DNA of 48,778 nt, taken from the IMG/VR virus record IMGVR_UViG_3300025314_000361, positions 1 through 48,778 of that record; one strand, 5' to 3'. Each line of letters begins with the position of its first letter. The first letter of the stretch is position 1. A model generated the notes under the pieces. That model saw nothing but the letters and a program-made list of their open reading frames with translations, ran no database searches and was not told the origin of the DNA. Source of the DNA: a virus. Of this stretch, positions 164-48,778 are shown one piece after another. The translations under genes were made by a program, and so were the position numbers.

Positions 164-391
164 GAAAATTCCAAGCCCAAGTGTCTGTTCATTATGGGAA
201 CGTCCGGTCACGGGGTAGCTTATTGGGGACAAGAAGAAATACAGATCGGTTGTATTAAAAAAACCTTTGTTGAATGGGATGCAGAATATAAGGAAGTTGG
301 TAAAGAAAATTCATACAAAAAAGATCAGGTCGAAGAATACTTTTCTTATATTCAAATGGTCAAGGCTTTTCACGAAGCCAATAAAAAATAA
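2..391 (+). CDS. Hexapeptide-repeat (left-handed beta-helix) protein, C-terminal part
   Basis: The reading frame is open from base 2. It starts inside the repeat, so the true start is missing here and is almost certainly the ATG at 48407. Nine hexapeptides (positions 2-163) are followed by a non-repetitive C-terminal domain of about 75 residues. That domain contains GTSGHGVAYWG and a W-D-x-E-Y-x-x-V-G segment ending in a Tyr-rich helix. From memory, similar tails occur on phage and bacterial hexapeptide proteins. Such repeats fold as a triangular beta-helix, seen in acyltransferases and in phage fibres and spikes; no acyltransferase active site is visible. It lies 18 bp upstream of the recombination genes. 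A role as a surface or fibre protein is inference. Confidence 0.8.
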   Translation, partial: YGASIGYGASIGDGASIGDGAFIGDGAFIGNRASIGNRAFIGNRASIGDGAFIGENSKPKCLFIMGTSGHGVAYWGQEEIQIGCIKKTFVEWDAEYKEVGKENSYKKDQVEEYFSYIQMVKAFHEANKK

Positions 392-409: not shown

Positions 410-1267
410 ATGGAAGAAATGAAAATCACTTCCGTCACGGACGTTGAAGTATTATCAACCCTTGTTCACACAGAAATTGACATTCAGATCGCAACAGCCA
501 AGAAGTACCCCCGGGCTGAATTGGCCGTCATTATTAAAAAAATAGAAGACCTTGTTTTCTTGACTGAAGACATTACCGAAAGTTGTGCATACGCTTTACC
601 CAGGAAGGAACGGGATAAGAAAACGAACCAATGGACAACGAAGATCATTTCAGGGCCAAGTGTTCGGTTCGCTGAAATCGTTGCACATTGTTACGGGAAC
701 ATTCGTTGCGGGGCAAGGGTAGTCGGCAACGATGGCCGGAAGATCACTTCACAAGGGTTCTGTCACGATCTTGAAAGCAACGTATTTGCAGCCTTCGAAG
801 TTCAACGCAAGATCACAACTTCAACAGGTCAAACCTATTCGGAAGATATGCAGATCATTACAGGCAATGCAGCTTCAAAGATTGCTTATCGTGTTGGAAT
901 ATTCAGCGTCATCCCGGCGGCTTTGGTTGCTGTTGTATTCGATAAGGTTCTGAAGAAGATAAAGGGTAAAGAAGAAGACTTGCCCCAACGACGTGAAAAG
1001 GCAATCAGTTGGTTCACTTCAAAAGGCGTGACGGACGTTCAGATATTCGAAGCCCTGGGTATAAAGAACGCTGAACAAATTGATCTTGAAAAATTGCAAA
1101 TACTTTCCGGGATGAAGACTTCGATCAATACCGGTGAATTCACCGCCGAAGAACTATTCCCGCCAATTGGGGATGATAAGAACAAAAGCAAGGCAGGGGC
1201 GGCAACTGATTCAACGCTTGGTCTATTCGACGGACAGGACAAAAAGACCAATGGCAAAAAGAAATAA
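410..1267 (+). CDS. Probable phage recombination (single-strand annealing-like) protein
   Basis: 285 residues. The central block contains SGPSVRFAEIVAHCYGN, then a G-F-C-H-D-L-E-S-N segment and an A-A-S-K-I-A-Y-R stretch. From memory, this resembles a phage family (I/S-GPSIRLAE, then AxDLETN, then ANxGARxxR) that is commonly encoded next to a nuclease. It ends 27 bp before a YqaJ-type exonuclease. Annealing proteins are classically paired with such exonucleases (Red beta/exo, RecT/RecE), so a single-strand annealing role is a reasonable inference. No canonical RecT motif is visible. The C-terminus is Lys-rich and probably disordered. ATG 410 follows the AAAAATTTAC leader; a second ATG at 419 is also possible. 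Confidence 0.6.
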   Translation: MEEMKITSVTDVEVLSTLVHTEIDIQIATAKKYPRAELAVIIKKIEDLVFLTEDITESCAYALPRKERDKKTNQWTTKIISGPSVRFAEIVAHCYGNIRCGARVVGNDGRKITSQGFCHDLESNVFAAFEVQRKITTSTGQTYSEDMQIITGNAASKIAYRVGIFSVIPAALVAVVFDKVLKKIKGKEEDLPQRREKAISWFTSKGVTDVQIFEALGIKNAEQIDLEKLQILSGMKTSINTGEFTAEELFPPIGDDKNKSKAGAATDSTLGLFDGQDKKTNGKKK

Positions 1268-1294: not shown

Positions 1295-2587
1295 ATGAAT
1301 AAGAAAAATTTGATCCTGACTTCAACGGTCGGGATGAACCGGGAAGAATGGCTTGCCTTCAGGAAGCCCATGATACACGTTGAAAACTTCTTGACCCAAC
1401 AACTGAAGAAGCCCCGCAACAAATGGACGTATGAAGAACTGAAGACATTCTTCGCCGGGCCTTCTTGGAAGAACTTCACGTTCCCTTGTGTCGGCGGTTC
1501 AGAGATCGCCACAATGATGGGCCTGAACCCTTATCAATCCGTCATTGAACTTTACTTCGAAAAGATCGGGGCCAAAGAAATACACGACTTCGACAATGCC
1601 GCAATGTTTTGGGGCCGGGAACTTGAAGAACAGATCGCCGACAAATGGCAGTATTGGGACGGCGATCCCGACCGGTTGATCGAAAACTTCAAGGCGAAGC
1701 GAATATCCAGGCGTTGCCGTAGGTTGAACGCATACGTCCAAAACAAGGCTTTCCCCTGGATATTCGTTTCCATTGACCGGTTGATAAATAAGCAAAGGAC
1801 GGGGACGGAAACGATTGACGAAGGGGTAAACGAGTGCAAGACAATTTCCGGGTATGCAGCGAATATGTGGGAAGCCGGTATCCCGCCAATGTACGTCGTC
1901 CAATTACAGACACAGATCACAGTCCTTGAAACAACCTTCGGGGAAATGACGATCCTGAAAGATGGCCGTTGGTTCGAAGTATATCCCTTCGACCGCAATG
2001 AAAGGATTTCGGCCCGGATACTTGCCCGGGGAAAAGAATTCTTCGATATGTGCAAGGCCGGGATCGTTCAATTCATCCTTCACAGCTTCGCCCGCAAACA
2101 ACACCTTCAGCAATGGCATTATTCCGAATGTGAACGCATGGCCCCTGAACCCGACGGATCACTTGCATACGAACAATACCTTGCCACTAAGTATCAAGAC
2201 AAGGGCGGTTCGATCCTGGGCAATAACCTTCAATTGGAAATGGCAAAGGAATGTAAGTATTACCGGCGGCGGATCAACAAGTTCTTGGCCCTTGGCCGGG
2301 AAACTTCCAACAGGCTGAAAGCGGCCCTTGGTGAATCGCAAAAAATGTCCTTCATGGAAGAAGGTTCCGTGACATGGACGGAAAACGGAAGGGGCGGGCG
2401 AACCTTCAGGATCAATCTTCGGCTTCCGGCTGACTACATACCCGATGCCATGAAGGAAGACCCGAACCGGGCCGGTGAAGACCCTGTTCTTGCAGCCGTC
2501 GGCAAGGTCAAGGTTGAAACTAAGTTGATCCCGACAGGGCCGTTGAAGAAGAAAAAGAAGAAGCGGAAATCCACAAAAAAGAAATGA
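1295..2587 (+). CDS. YqaJ-family (lambda-exonuclease-like) viral exonuclease
   Basis: 430 residues. The N-terminal NREEWLAFRKP and VGGSEIATMMGLNPY (about residues 67-80) match the YqaJ/lambda exonuclease signature. The PD-(D/E)XK catalytic set is visible: Glu in FWGRELEEQ (about 109-112), Asp in FVSIDRLI (about 161) and ECK (about 180-182). These are followed by a G-I-P-P-M-Y-x-x-Q-L-Q-T-Q helix typical of the family. Such enzymes resect double-stranded ends processively and hand the strand to an annealing protein, here probably the upstream gene. The C-terminus has a long poly-Lys/Arg tail, which may bind DNA. The protein is longer than lambda exonuclease because of extra C-terminal sequence. 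Confidence 0.85.
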   Translation: MNKKNLILTSTVGMNREEWLAFRKPMIHVENFLTQQLKKPRNKWTYEELKTFFAGPSWKNFTFPCVGGSEIATMMGLNPYQSVIELYFEKIGAKEIHDFDNAAMFWGRELEEQIADKWQYWDGDPDRLIENFKAKRISRRCRRLNAYVQNKAFPWIFVSIDRLINKQRTGTETIDEGVNECKTISGYAANMWEAGIPPMYVVQLQTQITVLETTFGEMTILKDGRWFEVYPFDRNERISARILARGKEFFDMCKAGIVQFILHSFARKQHLQQWHYSECERMAPEPDGSLAYEQYLATKYQDKGGSILGNNLQLEMAKECKYYRRRINKFLALGRETSNRLKAALGESQKMSFMEEGSVTWTENGRGGRTFRINLRLPADYIPDAMKEDPNRAGEDPVLAAVGKVKVETKLIPTGPLKKKKKKRKSTKKK

Positions 2588-2670: not shown

Positions 2671-2758
2671 GGGGTGCATCCGAAAAATAGTACATTTGTC
2701 ACGATCTTATTTCAAACGCCTTGGCCGTAGGGATGCACCCCCGAAAGCCGGGGCGTTT
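2671..2758 (+). promoter_or_regulatory. Interlocking inverted repeats in intergenic leader, with TACATTTG
   Basis: GGGGTGCATCC (2671-2681) is perfectly complementary to GGATGCACCCC (2731-2741). That right arm lies in the loop of a second hairpin, 2714-2725 with 2747-2758 (12 bp including two G-U pairs). Both cannot form except as a pseudoknot. A TANNTTTG-type -7 element, TACATTTG, is at 2691-2698, between the arms. No T run follows, so this is not a simple terminator. Confidence 0.55.
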
Positions 2759-2769
2759 CCTTTACTCCA

Positions 2770-3474
2770 ATGATTATAAGAACAATCCGCAAAGAAACCT
2801 TCACCAACATTTGCAACGATCTTTTGAATGACTGCGAAATAAGCTTCCGGGGCAAGGGTCTTCTTTGCTATTTAATTTCACGGCCCCCCAACTGGAACGC
2901 CAATGTCTGCCACTTAGCTAAAAACTTCAAGGAAGGAAAGGACGCTATTTATTCCATTATCAACGAATTGATTGAAGCCGGATACATTACCCGGATCATT
3001 CTGAAAGACGAAAAGGGCAGACACAACGGCGTTGAGTATCATGTCTATGAAACAAAGGAACCAAAACGGGATATTCCCGAAGTGGCTATTCCCGAAGGGG
3101 AAAAGCCCGATAATAATAAAGACGGAAGTTTAATAAGTAAAGAAGTTAAGAAGGAAATATCGCCACAAGAACAATTGAGACAAAAGAAAATTTCCTTTAT
3201 GAAGCTTGTAATTGATTGGGGTATCGAACACCCGAACAAGTATCCAAAGCTTCTTTACAAACAATTCGTGATCTATTGGACTGAACAAGCCATATCGAAA
3301 AAGATAAAGCTTCGATATGAAGATCAAAAATTCTTTGATGTTGGCCGTCGGCTTGCGACATGGTTCAGCAAGTCCCAGGATACAGACATTACAAAAATGT
3401 GGGAAGAAGAAAAGAAGCTTCCTTCAGTAAACGAAATCTTCAAAGAAATACTTGGTGTCAATGGCAAACAGTAA
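2770..3474 (+). CDS. Winged-helix replication initiator-like protein (DnaD/replisome-organizer type)
   Basis: 234 residues. Residues about 25-85 form a winged-helix domain: ISFRGKGLLCYLIS, then a K-E-G-K-D-A-I-Y-S-I-I-N-E-L recognition-type helix, then EAGYITR. This is the usual N-terminal domain of phage replisome organizers that bind the origin and load helicase. The remainder is charged, with a predicted helical C-terminal part. It overlaps the DnaB helicase gene by 14 bp, which supports a role as helicase loader or initiator. The preceding 180-bp gap carries inverted repeats and a -7-like element. The origin of replication may lie in or near this gene; that is inference. Confidence 0.75.
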   Translation: MIIRTIRKETFTNICNDLLNDCEISFRGKGLLCYLISRPPNWNANVCHLAKNFKEGKDAIYSIINELIEAGYITRIILKDEKGRHNGVEYHVYETKEPKRDIPEVAIPEGEKPDNNKDGSLISKEVKKEISPQEQLRQKKISFMKLVIDWGIEHPNKYPKLLYKQFVIYWTEQAISKKIKLRYEDQKFFDVGRRLATWFSKSQDTDITKMWEEEKKLPSVNEIFKEILGVNGKQ

Positions 3475-4957
3475 CGATAAAAAACGACGGACAAAAGAAT
3501 TGGCAGATCAAACAAGGGAACGTGAGGTCTTGCAAATGACTTTCGGGAAGGTTCCACCGCAAGCTAAAGACATTGAAGAAGCGATCCTTGGGGCAATTAT
3601 GCTTGAAACATTTGCCTTCGATAAGGTGAACGAAATGATTCACCCGGAAGTGTTTTACGTTTACGCACACCAAATAATTTACGAAGCAATGATCCGGCTG
3701 TCAGTAAAGTCACAGCCGATTGATATTCTTTCCGTGTCCGAAGAATTGCGGGCAATGGAAAAGCTTGAAGAATGTGGCGGGCCTTACTATGTGACGAAGC
3801 TTACCAATACAGTTGTATCGTCGGCCCATATTGAAAACCATGCAAGAATTGTTTATCAAAAATACATTCAACGTGAAATGATAAATCTTGGCGGTAAATT
3901 GATTACCGGGGGATATGAAGATGTTACGGACGTGTTCGATCTATTAGACGAAGCGGAAACGGCCTTGTATGACGTGTCCAATGCCCTGCACCGGAAGAAC
4001 TATGTCGGCATTGACAACCTTCTTGTCAAGGCTGTTCAGGAAGTTGAAACGGCCCGCCATTCGAACCAACAGATTTCCGGGGTCACTTCCGGCTTTCCTT
4101 CAATAGATCAAATCACATACGGTTGGCAAAAGCCTGACTTGATTATCCTTGCCGCCCGGCCTTCCGTTGGCAAGACAGCGTTGGCCCTTTCCCTTGCCCG
4201 CAATGCCGCCCTTGATCCATTCAAGCCGACACCTGTTGCCTTCTTCAGTCTTGAAATGTCGGGGGGCCAATTGATAAAGCGTCTTATGAGTTCGGAAAGC
4301 GAAATCCCATTGATAAAGATTCAACGGGGCCGTATGGAAGAACAGGATATGAAAGACCTGTATCAAAGGGGTGTTCAAATGTTATCGAACGCCAAGATAT
4401 ACATTGACGACACAGCTTCGATGAACATATTCGAACTAAGGGCCAAGGCCCGGCGATTGAAACAGAAACACGACATTGGACTTATCATTGTGGATTATCT
4501 TCAACTTATGTCCGGGACGGGATCAAGTAATTCAAGGAACCGGGAACAGGAAATAAGTGAAATATCCCGGGGGCTGAAGCGGATCGCAAAGGAACTTGAT
4601 ATACCTGTCATTGCCCTTTCACAGCTATCCAGAGAACCGGAAAAAAGGGCGGACAAAATTCCGCAACTGTCCGATCTTAGGGAAAGCGGCGCAATCGAAC
4701 AGGATGCCGACATTGTTGCTTTTATTTATCGGCCCGAATACTATGGAATTCACATTGACAAATTGGGTGAAAGCAACCCAGGGGAAACACATATAAAGTT
4801 TGCTAAGAACCGGAACGGCGTATTGGAAACGGTGAAGCTTCGGGCGCAATTGTGGATTCAAAAGTTCAAGGAATGGGATGCCCCAATGTTGAAACAACAG
4901 CCGGGCCAACAACCGCTTGACCAAGGTTGGACACAATTTTTAAAAGAAGAACTTTAA
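3461..4957 (+). CDS. dnaB: Replicative DNA helicase (DnaB family)
   Basis: 498 residues, a normal DnaB length. After the N-terminal helical domain (AILGAIM near residue 42) comes the RecA-fold ATPase. It has Walker A ARPSVGKT at about 232-239, a Walker B LIIVDYLQLM, and the family signature with NREQEISEISRGLK and ALSQLSREPEKR. RESGAIEQDADIV and an arginine-finger region follow. It unwinds DNA at the phage fork. The ATG at 3461 is preferred over TTG 3452; the start overlaps the upstream initiator gene by 14 bp, suggesting translational coupling. The last codons run into the palindrome AAACTAAGTTT before the next gene. Confidence 0.95.
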   Translation: MANSNDKKRRTKELADQTREREVLQMTFGKVPPQAKDIEEAILGAIMLETFAFDKVNEMIHPEVFYVYAHQIIYEAMIRLSVKSQPIDILSVSEELRAMEKLEECGGPYYVTKLTNTVVSSAHIENHARIVYQKYIQREMINLGGKLITGGYEDVTDVFDLLDEAETALYDVSNALHRKNYVGIDNLLVKAVQEVETARHSNQQISGVTSGFPSIDQITYGWQKPDLIILAARPSVGKTALALSLARNAALDPFKPTPVAFFSLEMSGGQLIKRLMSSESEIPLIKIQRGRMEEQDMKDLYQRGVQMLSNAKIYIDDTASMNIFELRAKARRLKQKHDIGLIIVDYLQLMSGTGSSNSRNREQEISEISRGLKRIAKELDIPVIALSQLSREPEKRADKIPQLSDLRESGAIEQDADIVAFIYRPEYYGIHIDKLGESNPGETHIKFAKNRNGVLETVKLRAQLWIQKFKEWDAPMLKQQPGQQPLDQGWTQFLKEEL

Positions 4958-4967: not shown

Positions 4968-5477
4968 ATGCGATCAATCGAAATTCCTTCTTTCTTATCT
5001 CATTTGAAAACGGATGCCCGGGGATACCCGGTTCCTTACTTCGTTCCCTGGATCAATGGCAAGCCCGACTTCAGAATGATTTCGAAACAATGCCTTTTAG
5101 AATGTGTTGAAAGGAAGCTTTGCGGAATATGTGGCAAGAAGCTTCACGAATATCAATACTTCATTACCGGGCCAATCGGCTTATCCAACGGAACACACAG
5201 CGACCCCCCTGCACACCGGGACTGTTGTGAATATTCGCTTCAGGTCTGTCCACACCTTCACTTTGAAAAGGCCGACCGAAACGACCGGGGCAATGAATAC
5301 AAAGAAGCCGTTCAGTTGAACAAGTCCGGTATCCTTACAAAGTCACCCGAACTATATTTGATAAAGGCCGACAAGTTCAAATTGGTACATATCCCAGGGG
5401 GGGAAACGATTATCAAGTTCAGAAAAATTTCATTTGACAAATACATTTACATTGACGGAACTTTACAAAAATCTTAA
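4968..5477 (+). CDS. Conserved phage/plasmid Cys-His protein of unknown function
   Basis: 169 residues. The central zinc-site-like cluster reads K-L-C-G-I-C-G-K-K-L (about 51-60), then P-P-A-H-R-D-C-C (about 83-90) and QVCPHLH. C-x2-C-G ... D-P-P-x-H-x2-C ... C-P-H/F is a layout I recall from uncharacterised actinophage and bacterial proteins. Metal binding is likely. The gene sits between the helicase and a 3-bp-spaced small gene, so it is probably part of the replication operon. No catalytic function can be assigned. Confidence 0.7.
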   Translation: MRSIEIPSFLSHLKTDARGYPVPYFVPWINGKPDFRMISKQCLLECVERKLCGICGKKLHEYQYFITGPIGLSNGTHSDPPAHRDCCEYSLQVCPHLHFEKADRNDRGNEYKEAVQLNKSGILTKSPELYLIKADKFKLVHIPGGETIIKFRKISFDKYIYIDGTLQKS

Positions 5478-5479
5478 AT

Positions 5480-5734
5480 ATGGCAGCGGGATTAAAAACA
5501 ACATCATTTCAACGTCAACGGACTGAAGTAAAGACCTTCAGTGAAGCAACCCTTGGCGATCTTGAAACAGCCTTTACAACCTATGAAGGGACGCAAGCGG
5601 CGGACACAACGAAGACATATAGTGTGAGGGTTATCAACAGTTACTTCGACGGAAGCAATTTCATATTGATCGCTGAAGCTTCTTATCCTGAAACAAATAC
5701 CGATCCGACGGGTCAGGTTCCGATTGCACCTTGA
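5480..5734 (+). CDS. Small hypothetical protein (possibly Cse60-like)
   Basis: 84 residues, starting 2 bp after the previous stop. The central part T-E-V-K-T-F-S-E-A-T-L-G-D-L-E, followed by a short beta region ending I-L-I-A-E-A-S-Y, resembles the small Cse60/phage family with an N-terminal strand, a helix and a closing strand. That likeness is weak. The C-terminal tail is Pro/Thr-rich. No function is proposed. Confidence 0.55.
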   Translation: MAAGLKTTSFQRQRTEVKTFSEATLGDLETAFTTYEGTQAADTTKTYSVRVINSYFDGSNFILIAEASYPETNTDPTGQVPIAP

Positions 5735-5753
5735 TAAGTTTTTTCTATATTTG
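5724..5753 (+). promoter_or_regulatory. Bacteroidota-type promoter TTG-N19-TATATTTG
   Basis: TTG at 5724-5726 and TATATTTG at 5746-5753 are separated by 19 bp, matching the Bacteroidota -33/-7 consensus. The predicted start of transcription (about 5760) falls just before the CCTAAAAATTTAC leader of the gene at 5777. Confidence 0.6.
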
Positions 5754-5776
5754 GAACACCTAAAAATTTACGCTGG

Positions 5777-5866
5777 ATGAATAAATACCTTCAGTTACTT
5801 ATCATTTACGCAATCATTATCATTGCGGTTGCGATACTCATTCTTTACCAAAACAATAGACTGTAA
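5777..5866 (+). CDS. 29-residue single-pass membrane peptide
   Basis: Short ORF beginning MNKYLQLLIIYA and continuing with an unbroken hydrophobic helix rich in Ile, Ala and Leu, ending YQNNRL. It is supported by its position 31 bp after a good -7 element, by the AAAAATTTAC leader directly upstream, and by the 2-bp gap to the next gene. Function is unknown; it could be a small inner-membrane regulator or simply a leader peptide. Confidence 0.55.
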   Translation: MNKYLQLLIIYAIIIIAVAILILYQNNRL

Positions 5867-5868
5867 TC

Positions 5869-6324
5869 ATGGGAAAGCTTATCGAACACCCGGACAAAGA
5901 CCTTGCCCGGATCAAAAGGGAAACAACAGCCGTCGGCGATATTATCAACAAGGAAATGATCGCCTTGCAAAAGAAGTTCCCGAATCACTTCTTTGAACTG
6001 TCATTTGAATTTCAACGGATCGGAAAGCAAAAGTTTTACCGAATACATATCAAGACCTTCACCGATCCAACAGAAAAGGAAAAGACCCCGACGGAATTGT
6101 TGCTTGACTTCATTGTATCCAAAGAACTTGATCTTGAAAACTATCATTCATTGATCGAACCATTGAACAAGCTGTTCACTATATGGGAAATGAAAGCAGG
6201 GACGAAAATCCCGGCGACAAAACAATTGGTTGATCGAATTATCCGTTGGGAAAAAGGGGAACAGGAAGCAAGCCTTGAAGCCACATTGAACCGGTTGTTC
6301 ATTATCGAAATGGGAAAACGATGA
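5869..6324 (+). CDS. Hypothetical protein
   Basis: 151 residues, mostly helical and charged, with a beta-like segment H-F-F-E-L-S-F-E-F-Q-R near residue 40. No family recognised. It starts 2 bp after the small membrane peptide and overlaps the NinG-like gene by 4 bp (ATGA), so it is translated in the same operon. An accessory role in recombination or replication is suggested only by its neighbours. Confidence 0.65.
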   Translation: MGKLIEHPDKDLARIKRETTAVGDIINKEMIALQKKFPNHFFELSFEFQRIGKQKFYRIHIKTFTDPTEKEKTPTELLLDFIVSKELDLENYHSLIEPLNKLFTIWEMKAGTKIPATKQLVDRIIRWEKGEQEASLEATLNRLFIIEMGKR

Positions 6325-40185: not shown

Positions 40186-40270
40186 ACTTTTATATTGTGC
40201 TTATCTTACACGTTTGACAGGCTTCCCGCCCAATCATTGTGTAAATTTTTAGGGTTGAACTTCGGTTCAC

Positions 40271-44749: not shown

Positions 44750-45106
44750 ATGTTTTTAGTAAAAGAAAATGATGTGTATAAGCGTGAACGGGTAGTTGAA
44801 TTCACCAACAACGAAACGATCACATTCAAACAGCAGGAAATTGCCGTGTACCAAAAGCATGAAAGCGATTGGTACATGACCATTGCTTTGGAAAAATCCG
44901 ACTTGGTGAAAGAAGACAGACACCTATTGACGTACAAGCTTCTTGTTGATTATCGTTGGGCTGTTCGTGAAGGGTTCAACCATGAACTTGACAAAAGCCT
45001 GAAGAACCCGTACAGCTACCCCCGGAACAGAAATACAGTCAAAGGAATACAGGGATATATTGCCCGAATTGTAAAGGCTTCGGAAGCCGAAATGAAATCA
45101 TTATGA
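44750..45106 (+). CDS. Hypothetical protein preceding the methyltransferase
   Basis: 118 residues from ATG 44750; the in-frame start at 44705 lies inside the previous gene. Charged, with E-R-V-V-E-F-T-N-N-E-T-I-T-F-K-Q-Q-E-I-A and a basic helical C-terminus. It overlaps the methyltransferase gene by 4 bp (ATGA), so the two are translationally coupled and may act together. No family recognised. Confidence 0.55.
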   Translation: MFLVKENDVYKRERVVEFTNNETITFKQQEIAVYQKHESDWYMTIALEKSDLVKEDRHLLTYKLLVDYRWAVREGFNHELDKSLKNPYSYPRNRNTVKGIQGYIARIVKASEAEMKSL

Positions 45107-45987
45107 CACCAACAGCAAAGGGGTATTTTTCGGGTTGCGGAGGTATGGAAATTGGTTTGATGCAAGCCGGGGTTCAAATGATCCAATCGCTTGACCTTGA
45201 TCCCCGGGCCGTGAATACGATGAAGCGGAACAATCAATACTTTGGTCACTCTGTATTACAACAGGACATAAAGGATATGACAGTTCTTCAGCAAAAGTCA
45301 AGTGACATTATTGTTGGAACTTATCCATGTACAAAGTATTCGACGATTGCAGACATTCACGGGGCAAGAACCGGCGACGATCTTTTTCTTCACTTCTTCC
45401 GTCATATAGCAATCGAACAGCCGGAAATGTACATTGTTGAAAACGTTCCAGGAATGAAGAAGTTTCCAATTGTCATGGAAGCAATGACGAAGTTGCCGCA
45501 ATATTATATCAACGTGTTTTGCCCAATGAAGGCTTGCAATTGGTTGCCGCAAAAACGTGACCGCCTTATCTTGATCGGGACGAAGAAGCCGGTCTTCATT
45601 ATGGAACCGAACCGGGCGAACAACCGGCCCCGGATAAAAGATATTTTGGAAATCAATCCCAATATCAACATTCCCGACAATGTTTATTCAAGGCTGAAGG
45701 GCAAGTATAGGGACAAGCCGATCATTGTTGATCCAAGCCAACCCGGGGCCATTGCGCCGACTTGCGTTGCCCATTACGCAAAGGATCAAGGAACCCGGCT
45801 TGTCATGGATAAGAACTTCAAACACGGTGTCCGGCCCTTTACAATAAGGGAATACGCCCGCTTGCAGGGCTTCCCGGATGACTTCAGCTTCGACGAAGAA
45901 CTTTGGTCATATCAACTTATTGGCAACGCCGTCCCGGTTCCAATGGCCCGGTGGATCGGTCTTCAGGCAATGAAATATTTTGCATAG
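45103..45987 (+). CDS. dcm: DNA (cytosine-5)-methyltransferase
   Basis: 294 residues, compact for the family. Motif I is Y-F-S-G-C-G-G-M-E-I-G (about 8-18). Motif IV is G-T-Y-P-C-T-K-Y-S with the catalytic Cys76. Motif VI is E-N-V-P-G (113-117) and motif VIII is Q-K-R-D-R-L-I-L-I-G (about 150-159). Motif IX is R-P-F-T-I-R-E-Y-A-R-L-Q-G-F-P and motif X is I-G-N-A-V-P-V-P-M-A. The target-recognition region is short. No restriction endonuclease gene is adjacent, so it is solitary and probably protects phage DNA from host restriction. Confidence 0.92.
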   Translation: MTPTAKGYFSGCGGMEIGLMQAGVQMIQSLDLDPRAVNTMKRNNQYFGHSVLQQDIKDMTVLQQKSSDIIVGTYPCTKYSTIADIHGARTGDDLFLHFFRHIAIEQPEMYIVENVPGMKKFPIVMEAMTKLPQYYINVFCPMKACNWLPQKRDRLILIGTKKPVFIMEPNRANNRPRIKDILEINPNINIPDNVYSRLKGKYRDKPIIVDPSQPGAIAPTCVAHYAKDQGTRLVMDKNFKHGVRPFTIREYARLQGFPDDFSFDEELWSYQLIGNAVPVPMARWIGLQAMKYFA

Positions 45988-46077: not shown

Positions 46078-46119
46078 TCTACCTTTACGGCAATTCGAAT
46101 TCACCCAAAAATTTACAGA

Positions 46120-47244
46120 ATGAAAAAATCCCTTCACAATCCCAAGGAACTCAAACAACTTGTTGATGTCCTGGAATATCAAGACAGCGTTAAAAAAGAC
46201 CTTGTACTTGATTCAGCAAAACACCTTCACTTTATCGGCGGGCAATTGGTTCTTCTTGATGGCAAGAAGAAGATCAAGTTGAACCCGACCGAACACTTTC
46301 ACACCCAGGTTGCCGAAAAATTCGACATACCCCGGGGGTATTACAAAAAAATGTTGGCCGACGCAACGAAGCTTCTTGACAGCAACGTGAACCATTGGTT
46401 GAAGTCAGAAAGTAAAAACCTTCTTCTTCGTACGTTCCAGGGCGGGGCCGATTATTACAAGTCCACTGCCCGGGCCTTATTGTCAGACCGGTATTCAATG
46501 ATTGACAATTATGCTGTACTTATGGAAGCCCTGGAAGCGATCAAGGAAACGGGCTTGAAGATCGAAGTCGTGAACGCCGAACTTTCGGAAACAAGAATGT
46601 ATCTGAAGGTTGTTTGCCCGGACGTTGAAATCAAAGCCAAGGAACTGTTGTACATGAACAGGCAATCCGTTGATCTTGGCGTTGGGGTCATTTCAGGCTT
46701 TACCCTTTCCAATAGTGAAATCGGGGCCGGCTCATTCAAGATCACACCCAGGGGCGTTGTGTTGGCTTGTACCAATGGCCTTATCAGTACGAAGGACGAA
46801 TTGAAAAACATTCACCTTGGTTCTAAAATGGAACAATTGGGCTTCGATAAGAACAAGGACGTTATGCGGGCCAACCTGAAGTTGATCCGGGAACAGATCA
46901 AACACGCTGTCAAAATCTTCCTGTCAAAAGAGTATCTTAAAAAACTGATTGACGTTTACAAACAACTTGGGGACAAGCCCATTGAAGCCCCAATCGAAAA
47001 AGTCATACAGGTTGTCGGGAAAGAATATCAAATCAGTGACGAACGGAAGTCTTCGATCCTGAAGTATTTCATCGAAGGCGGTGATACCCGAAGAATGGGC
47101 CTTGCTTCAGCAATGACCCGGGAAGTACAAGACCTTCAGAACGCCGATCAAAAGCATGAAACGGAAGTCGCAAGCTTCGATATGTTGAACAACTTCGACG
47201 CAATCGAAAAGGCTGCTTTCAAGATAAAAATTTCAGCATCTTAA
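46120..47244 (+). CDS. DUF932-family (phage/plasmid-like) protein
   Basis: 374 residues. H-T-Q-V-A-E-K-F-D-I-P-R-G-Y-Y-K-K-M (about 66-83), then F-Q-G-G-A-D-Y-Y-K-S-T-A-R-A-L-L-S-D-R-Y-S-M, then a late N-S-E-I-G-A-G-S-F-K-I-T-P match the DUF932/phage-plasmid TIGR03299 pattern. Such genes are frequent in early regions of plasmids and phages; the function is unknown. It is the first gene after a terminator, with the AAAAATTTAC leader at its start, so it probably begins an early transcript including ParB, XRE and the repeat protein. Confidence 0.75.
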   Translation: MKKSLHNPKELKQLVDVLEYQDSVKKDLVLDSAKHLHFIGGQLVLLDGKKKIKLNPTEHFHTQVAEKFDIPRGYYKKMLADATKLLDSNVNHWLKSESKNLLLRTFQGGADYYKSTARALLSDRYSMIDNYAVLMEALEAIKETGLKIEVVNAELSETRMYLKVVCPDVEIKAKELLYMNRQSVDLGVGVISGFTLSNSEIGAGSFKITPRGVVLACTNGLISTKDELKNIHLGSKMEQLGFDKNKDVMRANLKLIREQIKHAVKIFLSKEYLKKLIDVYKQLGDKPIEAPIEKVIQVVGKEYQISDERKSSILKYFIEGGDTRRMGLASAMTREVQDLQNADQKHETEVASFDMLNNFDAIEKAAFKIKISAS

Positions 47245-47275: not shown

Positions 47276-48112
47276 ATGGCAGACATGGTAAAGCGGAACA
47301 ATATTTTTTTGATTCCGTTCACGAAATTGAAAATCCTTGACAACTTTAATGACCGTCAAGACTACGGGACAACTGAAGAAATGAACGAATTGACTGAAAG
47401 CATTTACAACAACGGTTGCCGGGTTCCCCTTATGGGATACAAGGACGGCGAAAAGTATGTTGTCATGCAAGGTCATCGTCGCTTCAGGGCCGGGGAAAAG
47501 ATCAAGGAAAAGTACAAGAAGACAATCATTTATAAAATGATCGTGTATCCCCCCGGTACAACTGACAAGGAAATGTTGCTTGATACATTGCTTACAAATT
47601 CCGGGAAGGATTTGACCCCGTTGGAAAAAGCTTCAGTCGTCACGAAGTTGATCGCTGAAAAGGCAACTACAAAGGAAATTGCCGCCGCCTTGGGCGGGGT
47701 GTCCGAAGTGTACGTCAAGAACCTTGATCGCCTGTCTTCGGCCCCGGAAGAAGCCAAGAAGCTTATCCGTGACGGTGTGGTATCCGCAACCCTTGTGATC
47801 GGGTATCTGAAGAACAAGAACGCCAACATGGAAGAATTCATCCAGGAAGTGAAGAAACAAGCCGAATTGGAAGGATCGGGAACCGGCAAGGGAAAAGGCA
47901 ACAAGAAGAAACAGGCCAAGGTAACGGCTAAAAAGGTCACTAAAAAGGACGGGGCCAAAGGGTCAAGCCTTGCGGAATTCAAGCGATTTATGAAACAGAA
48001 CCCGGACACGTTCGAAAGCAAAGACAAACAAGCTGCTTACGAGTTCTTCACCCAGGTCATAAACAACAAGGTGTCATATCTTGAAATCCTTTCATGGTTC
48101 ACCGGTAAATAA
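47276..48112 (+). CDS. ParB-like nuclease/CTPase-domain protein
   Basis: 278 residues. The N-terminal ParB fold has E-E-M-N-E-L-T-E-S-I-Y-N-N-G-C-R-V-P-L and G-H-R-R-F-R-A-G (about 66-73). A helix-turn-helix-like block follows, T-T-K-E-I-A-A-A-L-G-G-V-S-E-V-Y-V-K-N-L. A Lys/Gly-rich linker at about 205-230 leads to a helical C-terminus. ParB proteins bind parS-like sites and act as CTP clamps. No ParA is present, so partition is unlikely to be its sole role. Transcription or replication control is possible. Confidence 0.8.
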   Translation: MADMVKRNNIFLIPFTKLKILDNFNDRQDYGTTEEMNELTESIYNNGCRVPLMGYKDGEKYVVMQGHRRFRAGEKIKEKYKKTIIYKMIVYPPGTTDKEMLLDTLLTNSGKDLTPLEKASVVTKLIAEKATTKEIAAALGGVSEVYVKNLDRLSSAPEEAKKLIRDGVVSATLVIGYLKNKNANMEEFIQEVKKQAELEGSGTGKGKGNKKKQAKVTAKKVTKKDGAKGSSLAEFKRFMKQNPDTFESKDKQAAYEFFTQVINNKVSYLEILSWFTGK

Positions 48113-48117
48113 TTGAT

Positions 48118-48381
48118 ATGCCGAAACTTAAAGACAGCGTTCCACGTACAACGTTGGAACAACAACAGATCAAGGCAATTGGCCGGGCGTTTAGAATCGC
48201 CCGGCTTGACCTTGATCTTCAGCTTCAACAAATCGCTGAAGCGTCCGGGGTGTCCCGGCTGACAATTGGCAAGATCGAAAAAGGAACCCTTGCCAATGTC
48301 AGCTTGGAAACTTTGAACCGGATTGCAACGGCCCTGGATATGAAGATCACATACACTGTTGAAGCCAAAAAGAAGAACTAA
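48118..48381 (+). CDS. XRE-family helix-turn-helix regulator
   Basis: 87 residues. F-R-I-A-R-L-D-L-D-L-Q-L-Q-Q-I-A-E-A-S-G-V-S-R-L-T-I-G-K-I-E-K-G is a complete Cro/C1-type helix-turn-helix. It is followed by V-S-L-E-T-L-N-R-I-A-T-A-L-D-M-K-I (HipB-like). It is a single-domain DNA-binding protein, likely a repressor of a phage promoter. The recurrent palindromes are candidate operators, but no link is shown. It begins 5 bp after the ParB stop. Confidence 0.8.
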   Translation: MPKLKDSVPRTTLEQQQIKAIGRAFRIARLDLDLQLQQIAEASGVSRLTIGKIEKGTLANVSLETLNRIATALDMKITYTVEAKKKN

Positions 48382-48406
48382 GTTTTTAACTCTAAAAATT
48401 TATAAA
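48375..48406 (+). promoter_or_regulatory. Near-palindrome GAACTAAGTTT plus AAAAATTTATA leader
   Basis: GAACTAAGTTT (48375-48385) overlaps the XRE stop codon and differs from the palindrome by one base. CTCTAAAAATTTATAAA then runs up to ATG 48407. Confidence 0.45.
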
Positions 48407-48778
48407 ATGCAAGAAGTAAAAATTCATCTATTCGTTTTCGGCGAAGGTTGGAAAGAATTCAAGACAACTGATGTTGAAGAACTTAAAGCCCGCAACATTA
48501 CCATTCACAACCGGGCATCCATAGGGTACGGGGCATCCATAGGGGACGGGGCATCCATAGGGGACGGGGCATCCATAGGGAACCGGGCATCCATAGGGAA
48601 CCGGGCATCCATAGGGAACCGGGCATCCATAGGGTACGGGGCATCCATAGGGTACGGGGCATCCATAGGGAACCGGGCATTCATAGGGTACGGGGCATCC
48701 ATAGGGTACGGGGCATCCATAGGGAACCGGGCATTCATAGGGGACGGGGCATCCATAGGGAACCGGGCATTCATAGGG
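48407..48778 (+). CDS. Hexapeptide-repeat (left-handed beta-helix) protein, N-terminal part
   Basis: Thirty-four unique residues come first (Q-E-V-K-I-H-L-F-V-F-G-E-G-W-K-E-F). Hexapeptides of the form N-R-A-S-I-G, Y-G-A-S-I-G or D-G-A-S-I-G then run to the window end without a stop. Fifteen complete units are visible, and the gene continues at 2-391, so the whole protein has at least 24 repeats. It is the last gene of the DUF932-ParB-XRE operon. Joining the two ends directly leaves one extra g, so the real junction must overlap or differ. Repeat number is probably collapsed in the assembly. Confidence 0.85.
   Translation, partial: MQEVKIHLFVFGEGWKEFKTTDVEELKARNITIHNRASIGYGASIGDGASIGDGASIGNRASIGNRASIGNRASIGYGASIGYGASIGNRAFIGYGASIGYGASIGNRAFIGDGASIGNRAFIG
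48509..48778 (+). repeat. 18-bp coding tandem repeat, right-end part (15 units)
   Basis: Exactly 15 units of 18 bp fill this interval. Unit order by first residue is N Y D D N N N Y Y N Y Y N D N. The AAC unit always carries CGG, and the TAC and GAC units always carry GGG. The third site is TCC except in units 10, 13 and 15, which have TTC. Confidence 0.95.

Follow-up and report, generated by a model that had tools for sequence, protein, structure and literature searches.

What kind of protein is encoded by a viral gene that consists largely of a single repeated 18-bp unit, and that lies at both extremities of a contig classed as linear? The question is raised by the stretch of DNA analysed here (hereafter the window), which is the complete 48778-bp IMG/VR virus record IMGVR_UViG_3300025314_000361. 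At its right end an open reading frame begins with an ATG at 48407 and stays open to the last base, while the frame at its left end is open from base 2 (frame 2) and runs to a stop codon. The right-hand piece encodes 34 unique residues ahead of 15 hexapeptide units; the left-hand piece encodes nine further units followed by a unique C-terminal part (Table 1). Tandem repeat finding and the reading frames agree on these unit numbers and boundaries, as had been read from the sequence in a first-pass annotation. The Pfam Hexapep profile (PF00132; cut-off 27 bits) matches the right piece with 73 bits (E=7e-21) and the left piece with 42 bits (E=4e-11), and by this measure the product is a hexapeptide protein of tandem [LIV]-G-x-x-[STAV]-x units with a predicted left-handed beta-helix. 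Consistent with this, an AF2 model of the C half (mean pLDDT 83) has one short strand per six residues.

Table 1. Features of the array gene and its surroundings in the window.
Feature	Position	Strand	Evidence
ParB-like protein	47276..48112	+	phrog_1033 E=2.6e-26
XRE-type HTH regulator, directly upstream of array gene	48118..48381	+	Pfam HTH_3; homologue right before RecT in L086
Leader motif CTAAAAATTTATAAAATG	48392..48409	+	pattern search
N-terminal part (N-cap, MQEVKIHLFVFGEGWKEFKTTDVEELKARNITIH)	48407..48508	+	ORF; PHROG_5353 positions 5 onwards
Hexapeptide array, right piece, 15 x 18-bp units, open at contig end	48509..48778	+	TRF (18-bp unit, 15.0 copies at 48509-48778, 91% matches), unit translation, Hexapep
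Hexapeptide array, left piece, 9 x 18-bp units, open at contig start	2..163	+	TRF (18-bp unit, 9.1 copies at 3-165, 93% matches), unit translation, Hexapep
C-terminal part, stop 389-391	about 164..391	+	phrog_32789, cap HMM, AF2, BFVD
Cap domain inside C-terminal part	about 182-388	+	four strands, two helices predicted
phrog_3657 protein, directly downstream of array gene	410..1267	+	phrog_3657 E=2e-46, family without assigned function
RecE/lambda-exonuclease-type nuclease	1295..2587	+	TIGR03033 above cut-off; phrog_434 E=6e-46

Whether the two pieces are halves of one gene can be judged from a protein family that covers both. PHROG_5353 (256 positions) aligns with the right half over profile positions 5-131 (E=9e-31) and with the left half over positions 129-250 (E=1e-23), so that the N part, the repeats and the C-cap are all matched. 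In addition, the related contig L086 carries a ParB-like gene (2758-3639), an XRE gene (3646-3903), a RecT-like gene (3940-4815) and an exonuclease gene (5042-6256), which is the order obtained when the genes at the window's right end are read on into those at its left end. Because PHROG_5353 spans both halves and L086 has this order, the window ends are neighbours and, on this comparative evidence, the two halves belong to one gene that was split by the assembly. The hexapeptide gene spanning both ends that the first-pass annotation had proposed is therefore upheld. Its claim of a single reading frame stands for each half but not for the ends as written: plain concatenation leaves one surplus G and a +1 frame, and a one-base overlap restores reading through. 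No exact overlap longer than one base was found between the window ends. Since the ends are off by one base and lack a longer overlap, the total of 24 units is a count made by the assembly and not a measured one. In L086 the gap between the XRE and RecT-like genes is just 36 bp, without an array gene between them; the array gene is thus an extra, accessory gene at its site.

The C-terminal part contains a domain of about 65 residues, which we call the cap, with the pattern GSxHxVxYxGxxxIxIGCxxxTIxxWxxxYxxIGxxxGYTxEQIEEYxxYI. The window copy is matched by phrog_32789 (E=8e-11) and by a cap HMM (E=1e-26), and is modelled by AF2 at a pLDDT of about 90 as four strands and two helices. The cap is common to about 35 phage, prophage and plasmid elements, among them two human gut phage records, Leptospira plasmids, a Chloroflexota plasmid, a Vibrio/Shewanella phage and about 30 IMG/VR contigs. 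In most members its fusion partner is a run of hexapeptide repeats; elsewhere it is joined to pentapeptide repeats (L014, L020, L034, L037, L038 and the second gene of L013), VYGNA-type hexapeptides (L027, L028, L036 and L063) or an ILGGT repeat (L029). When the AF2 model of the C half was searched against BFVD, viral pentapeptide-repeat proteins were retrieved with a probability of 1.00, one of which superposes on the cap alone at 1.1 angstrom. No solved structure in the PDB resembles the cap by sequence or by fold; for the array the silence of Foldseek is uninformative, as the search also missed known beta-helix entries, perhaps through repeat masking. A full-length model of the L019 protein was weak (mean pLDDT 71, with lower values in the caps) and was left out of the analysis. 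Searches with the window's own C-terminus found no close relatives, the unit used as a DNA pattern matched no other viral contig, and two scans of genome contigs with the cap alignment confirmed no relative, possibly limited by the pattern pre-filter. The N-cap is 61% identical over 36 aa to copies on a Leptospira mayottensis plasmid. On that plasmid (L011, 2088-5018) five consecutive genes have a common N-cap, and the annotated three genes before the fourth end without a C-cap; this run of genes indicates that the family also expands as whole genes. On another plasmid (L013, 3704-4935) a hexapeptide gene adjoins a pentapeptide gene, both with cap-like C-termini.

The arrays themselves differ between close relatives. 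In the Leptospira interrogans elements L012, L013 and L021 the N-terminal DNA is identical at 93/93 positions and the C-terminal DNA at 201-222 of 210-228 bases, and yet the arrays contain 18, 11 and 19 units, respectively, each of different composition. Units differ too in the near-identical pair L017/L018. Array length and content are therefore hypervariable between close relatives, as seen in Leptospira and not in the window's own species, and a variable unit number, suspected between virions in the first-pass annotation, is found when related elements are compared. Looking through phage and plasmid collections for further isolate alleles added little. The Leptospira element L024 has 25 whole units; a stop codon within its array divides the copy into two ORFs (5434-6201). 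The L094 array is cut at the end of the stored stretch.

Arrays of the cap family do break assemblies. By inspection, 8/32 cap-bearing IMG/VR contigs begin or end inside the array gene (L026, L030, L034, L037, L043, L053, L060, L063), against about 1.0 predicted by the lengths of contigs and genes (P = 5.5e-5 in simulations for at least 7 such contigs). Two contigs from one Leptospira genome, L026 and L096, are both broken in the same array and have 22 units each in their assembled pieces. These counts agree with the earlier suggestion that the array explains why the window's assembly was opened at this gene.

Variation between the units of the window follows a strict formula, ATA GGG [TAC/GAC/AAC] [GGG/CGG] GCA [TCC/TTC]. 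The ATA, GGG and GCA codons are invariant throughout, five distinct unit types occur, no synonymous differences exist among the units compared, and every change at the three variable codons alters the amino acid. The codon identity emphasized in the first-pass annotation thus holds for the framework of the unit. By itself the window provides four steps between codons (P=0.11 for synonymous depletion), and with only four steps selection is not demonstrated for the window alone. We note the pooled result from 24 arrays that were selected through their cap, without regard to the repeats: the observed codons are separated by 154 non-synonymous and 29 synonymous steps, counted as minimal spanning steps rather than under a codon model and with the Leptospira arrays being mutually non-independent. 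The synonymous steps are depleted relative to the ~65 expected if the variable columns are neutral and the remaining columns strictly conserved (0/200,000 simulations as low), and 12 of the 24 arrays have no synonymous step at all.

The order of units speaks to how this uniformity arose. Adjacent units are no more similar than shuffled ones, and a test for adjacency of identical units was not significant in any array. Within units, pairs of sites 4-13 bp apart occur in all four combinations in most arrays, the window included. Unclustered units together with all four site combinations fit repeated exchange rather than one recent expansion. Accordingly, where recent expansion or homogenisation had been proposed, homogenisation stands and a simple recent tandem expansion is not favoured. 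Targeting by a diversity-generating retroelement was rejected, there being no match to the reverse transcriptase model RVT_1 in the 48.8-kb record, which may be incomplete.

The surroundings of the gene belong to the early region of the phage (Table 1). The product encoded directly downstream is probably RecT-like, judging from relatives with the same neighbours, and replication genes including a DnaB helicase follow the exonuclease. Rfam and tRNA scans across the window gave no matches. A leader motif, CTAAAAATTTANANAATG, stands ahead of the array gene and again ahead of the RecT-like gene (395-412), exact in its defined positions in both places; its pattern has 7 matches in the window versus 1.65 expected, a number reached in 0/100 shuffles. 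Near-copies of the motif stand ahead of early genes at 395-412, 46105-46122 and 48392-48409, two of them exact and one with one mismatch. In this phage it probably acts as a promoter or start signal, and the array gene would then be expressed early, probably with the RecT-like gene. Most relatives with nameable neighbours likewise have methyltransferase (L015, L016), exonuclease (L010, L041, L020) or annealing-protein genes nearby, the latter Erf- and Sak4-like (L028, L017), and PD-(D/E)XK nucleases occur in L012 and L013. The L040 cap gene adjoins a virion-protein gene, and several other members have neighbours without a name. The other RecT-like relatives that were fetched had no cap gene in the sequence available around them.

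The reading that we favour, tentatively and at somewhat less than even chances, is that of an accessory phage protein whose surface is shuffled by recombination and diversifies, and would likely serve binding in phage-host or phage-phage conflict. According to this model, an N-cap would be followed by a left-handed beta-helix built from many hexapeptide units of 18 bp each and then by the conserved C-terminal cap. The presumed inward-facing codons (I, G, A) would be kept the same in all units, with variation confined to the outward positions i+2, i+3 and i+5. Frequent unequal exchange between units would add, remove and shuffle them while the framework stays homogeneous, and selection would retain differing exposed residues, giving each lineage its own surface and length. 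Such a fast-changing binding surface might be used as a decoy, adaptor or inhibitor against host defence or rival phages. Against this reading, members L023, L025, L033, L040 and L084 have more divergent arrays or few units. Neither window half and none of five relatives matched known anti-phage defence proteins in PADLOC. Mimicry of DNA by charge was rejected as a general rule, since the arrays lack a consistently acidic character: across the family, net charge per 100 residues ranges from -17 to +6 and is mostly near 0, with +4.4 and -1.9 for the window halves.

The weightiest alternative, possible though in our judgement unlikely, is a neutral, structural rod or spacer: slippage and unequal exchange would renew its repeats, its exposed positions would be unconstrained and its length would be of little relevance. 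Exposed beta-helix positions do tolerate change, homogenisation of a tandem array requires no selection, and the window alone fits neutrality at the exposed codons. New repeat copies moreover show relaxed constraint plus positive selection in general (PMC5120217), which we count in favour of the neutral rod. Against it stand the pooled synonymous depletion, units that are not more clustered than in shuffled order, and the recurrence of the same pattern when one cap is combined with several repeat types that are unrelated. An artefact of assembly, in the array or in its unit number, would fit the ends that are one base off and exact repeats of up to 60-61 bp, the longest present, from which collapsed or chimaeric unit orders are possible; we regard it as very improbable, because intact genes of the same design occur in complete plasmid records and in many contigs, and PHROG_5353 fits both halves.

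A self-assembling cytoplasmic scaffold resembling bactofilins, for which length and regularity would matter rather than surface sequence, is suggested by the highly regular beta-helix, a weak BFVD match (E=0.02) to a phage protein called polymer-forming cytoskeletal, and the ParB-like gene close by. It is improbable given the highly variable surface and the absence of any hit to bactofilin in Pfam at E<=0.1; folded caps at both ends would, moreover, be expected to block end-to-end stacking. The fibre or coat protein of the first-pass annotation, its length set by repeat number, we consider distinctly improbable. Some phage fibres are beta-helical, as this protein is predicted to be, and the L040 relative lies next to a virion-protein gene, but the site itself is an early one, between the XRE and RecT/RecE-type genes, and is empty in L086; the leader motif is held in common with the RecT-like gene; DNA-metabolism neighbours recur in many relatives; and the array gene matches only PHROG families of unknown function, with no tail match. 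An acyltransferase or other hexapeptide-repeat enzyme is hardly credible: plasmid relatives are annotated as LpxA-, DapD- or GlmU-like and the Hexapep profile does match, whereas curated NCBIfam models of hexapeptide acyltransferases (LpxA/LpxD/GlmU/DapD) match the repeats only and far below cut-off (best 35 bits versus 207), and a pure repeat would leave no space for a catalytic loop.

Hypervariable repeat proteins are well known as fungal immune sensors. In the fungal NLRs HET-D and HET-E (PMC12222747, PMC4986451), WD40 repeats are kept near-identical by concerted evolution, a few hypervariable sites are under diversifying selection, and the repeats are polymorphic in length and escape recovery in Illumina assemblies (PMC12222747). 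The phage family has the same hallmarks on beta-solenoids, namely near-identical repeats, hypervariable sites and, in the Leptospira relatives rather than in the window's species, length polymorphism; the likeness would be one of analogy and not homology. HET-D and HET-E are eukaryotic immune receptors that join a beta-propeller sensor to effector domains, whereas the phage protein is a capped beta-helix alone. TAL effectors, which have no homology to the array gene, also combine near-identical DNA repeats with few hypervariable codons, in alpha-helical DNA-binding repeats. NeuO is reportedly an O-acetyltransferase whose phase-variable repeat is not itself the beta-helix. This protein of prophage CUS-3 has a left-handed beta-helix fold and carries a variable tandem repeat (PMC3046976). 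Archaeal Borg elements contain recently formed, fast-evolving in-frame repeats within genes (PMC9879509), which create disordered regions, whereas the phage repeats are predicted to fold into an ordered solenoid that bears one conserved cap. PHROG_5353 matches the array gene along its length and phrog_32789 the cap alone; both are unnamed families, in which neither the variable array nor the fusion of the cap to other repeats is described, and our literature searches, within the papers accessible to them, found no description of this family.

It is conceivable, if doubtful, that these genes form an undescribed and widespread phage and plasmid class in which one cap is placed on varied beta-solenoids and exposed residues are diversified by selected repeat shuffling, tracking host or rival-phage targets. 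Such a class would correspond, among viruses, to the immune receptors built from hypervariable repeats. If the phage family has the same evolutionary signature as those receptors, it points to a quickly changing target, and the variable codons would mark the contacting residues. Short-read virus assemblies break or collapse these array genes, which are therefore undercounted, and the cap domain offers a handle to find family members regardless of repeat type.

Outside the array locus, an exact copy of the leader motif lies on the minus strand at 40235-40252, between two structural genes, and no evident gene follows it. Even the closest terminases are remote: the top match, at 25% identity, comes from a Bacteroides phage, and some of the remaining ones come from flavobacterial phages. 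From these matches the host is likely a member of the Bacteroidota. The window also encodes a C-5 cytosine DNA methyltransferase (45103-45984; Pfam DNA_methylase, E=3e-38), which possibly protects the phage against host restriction.
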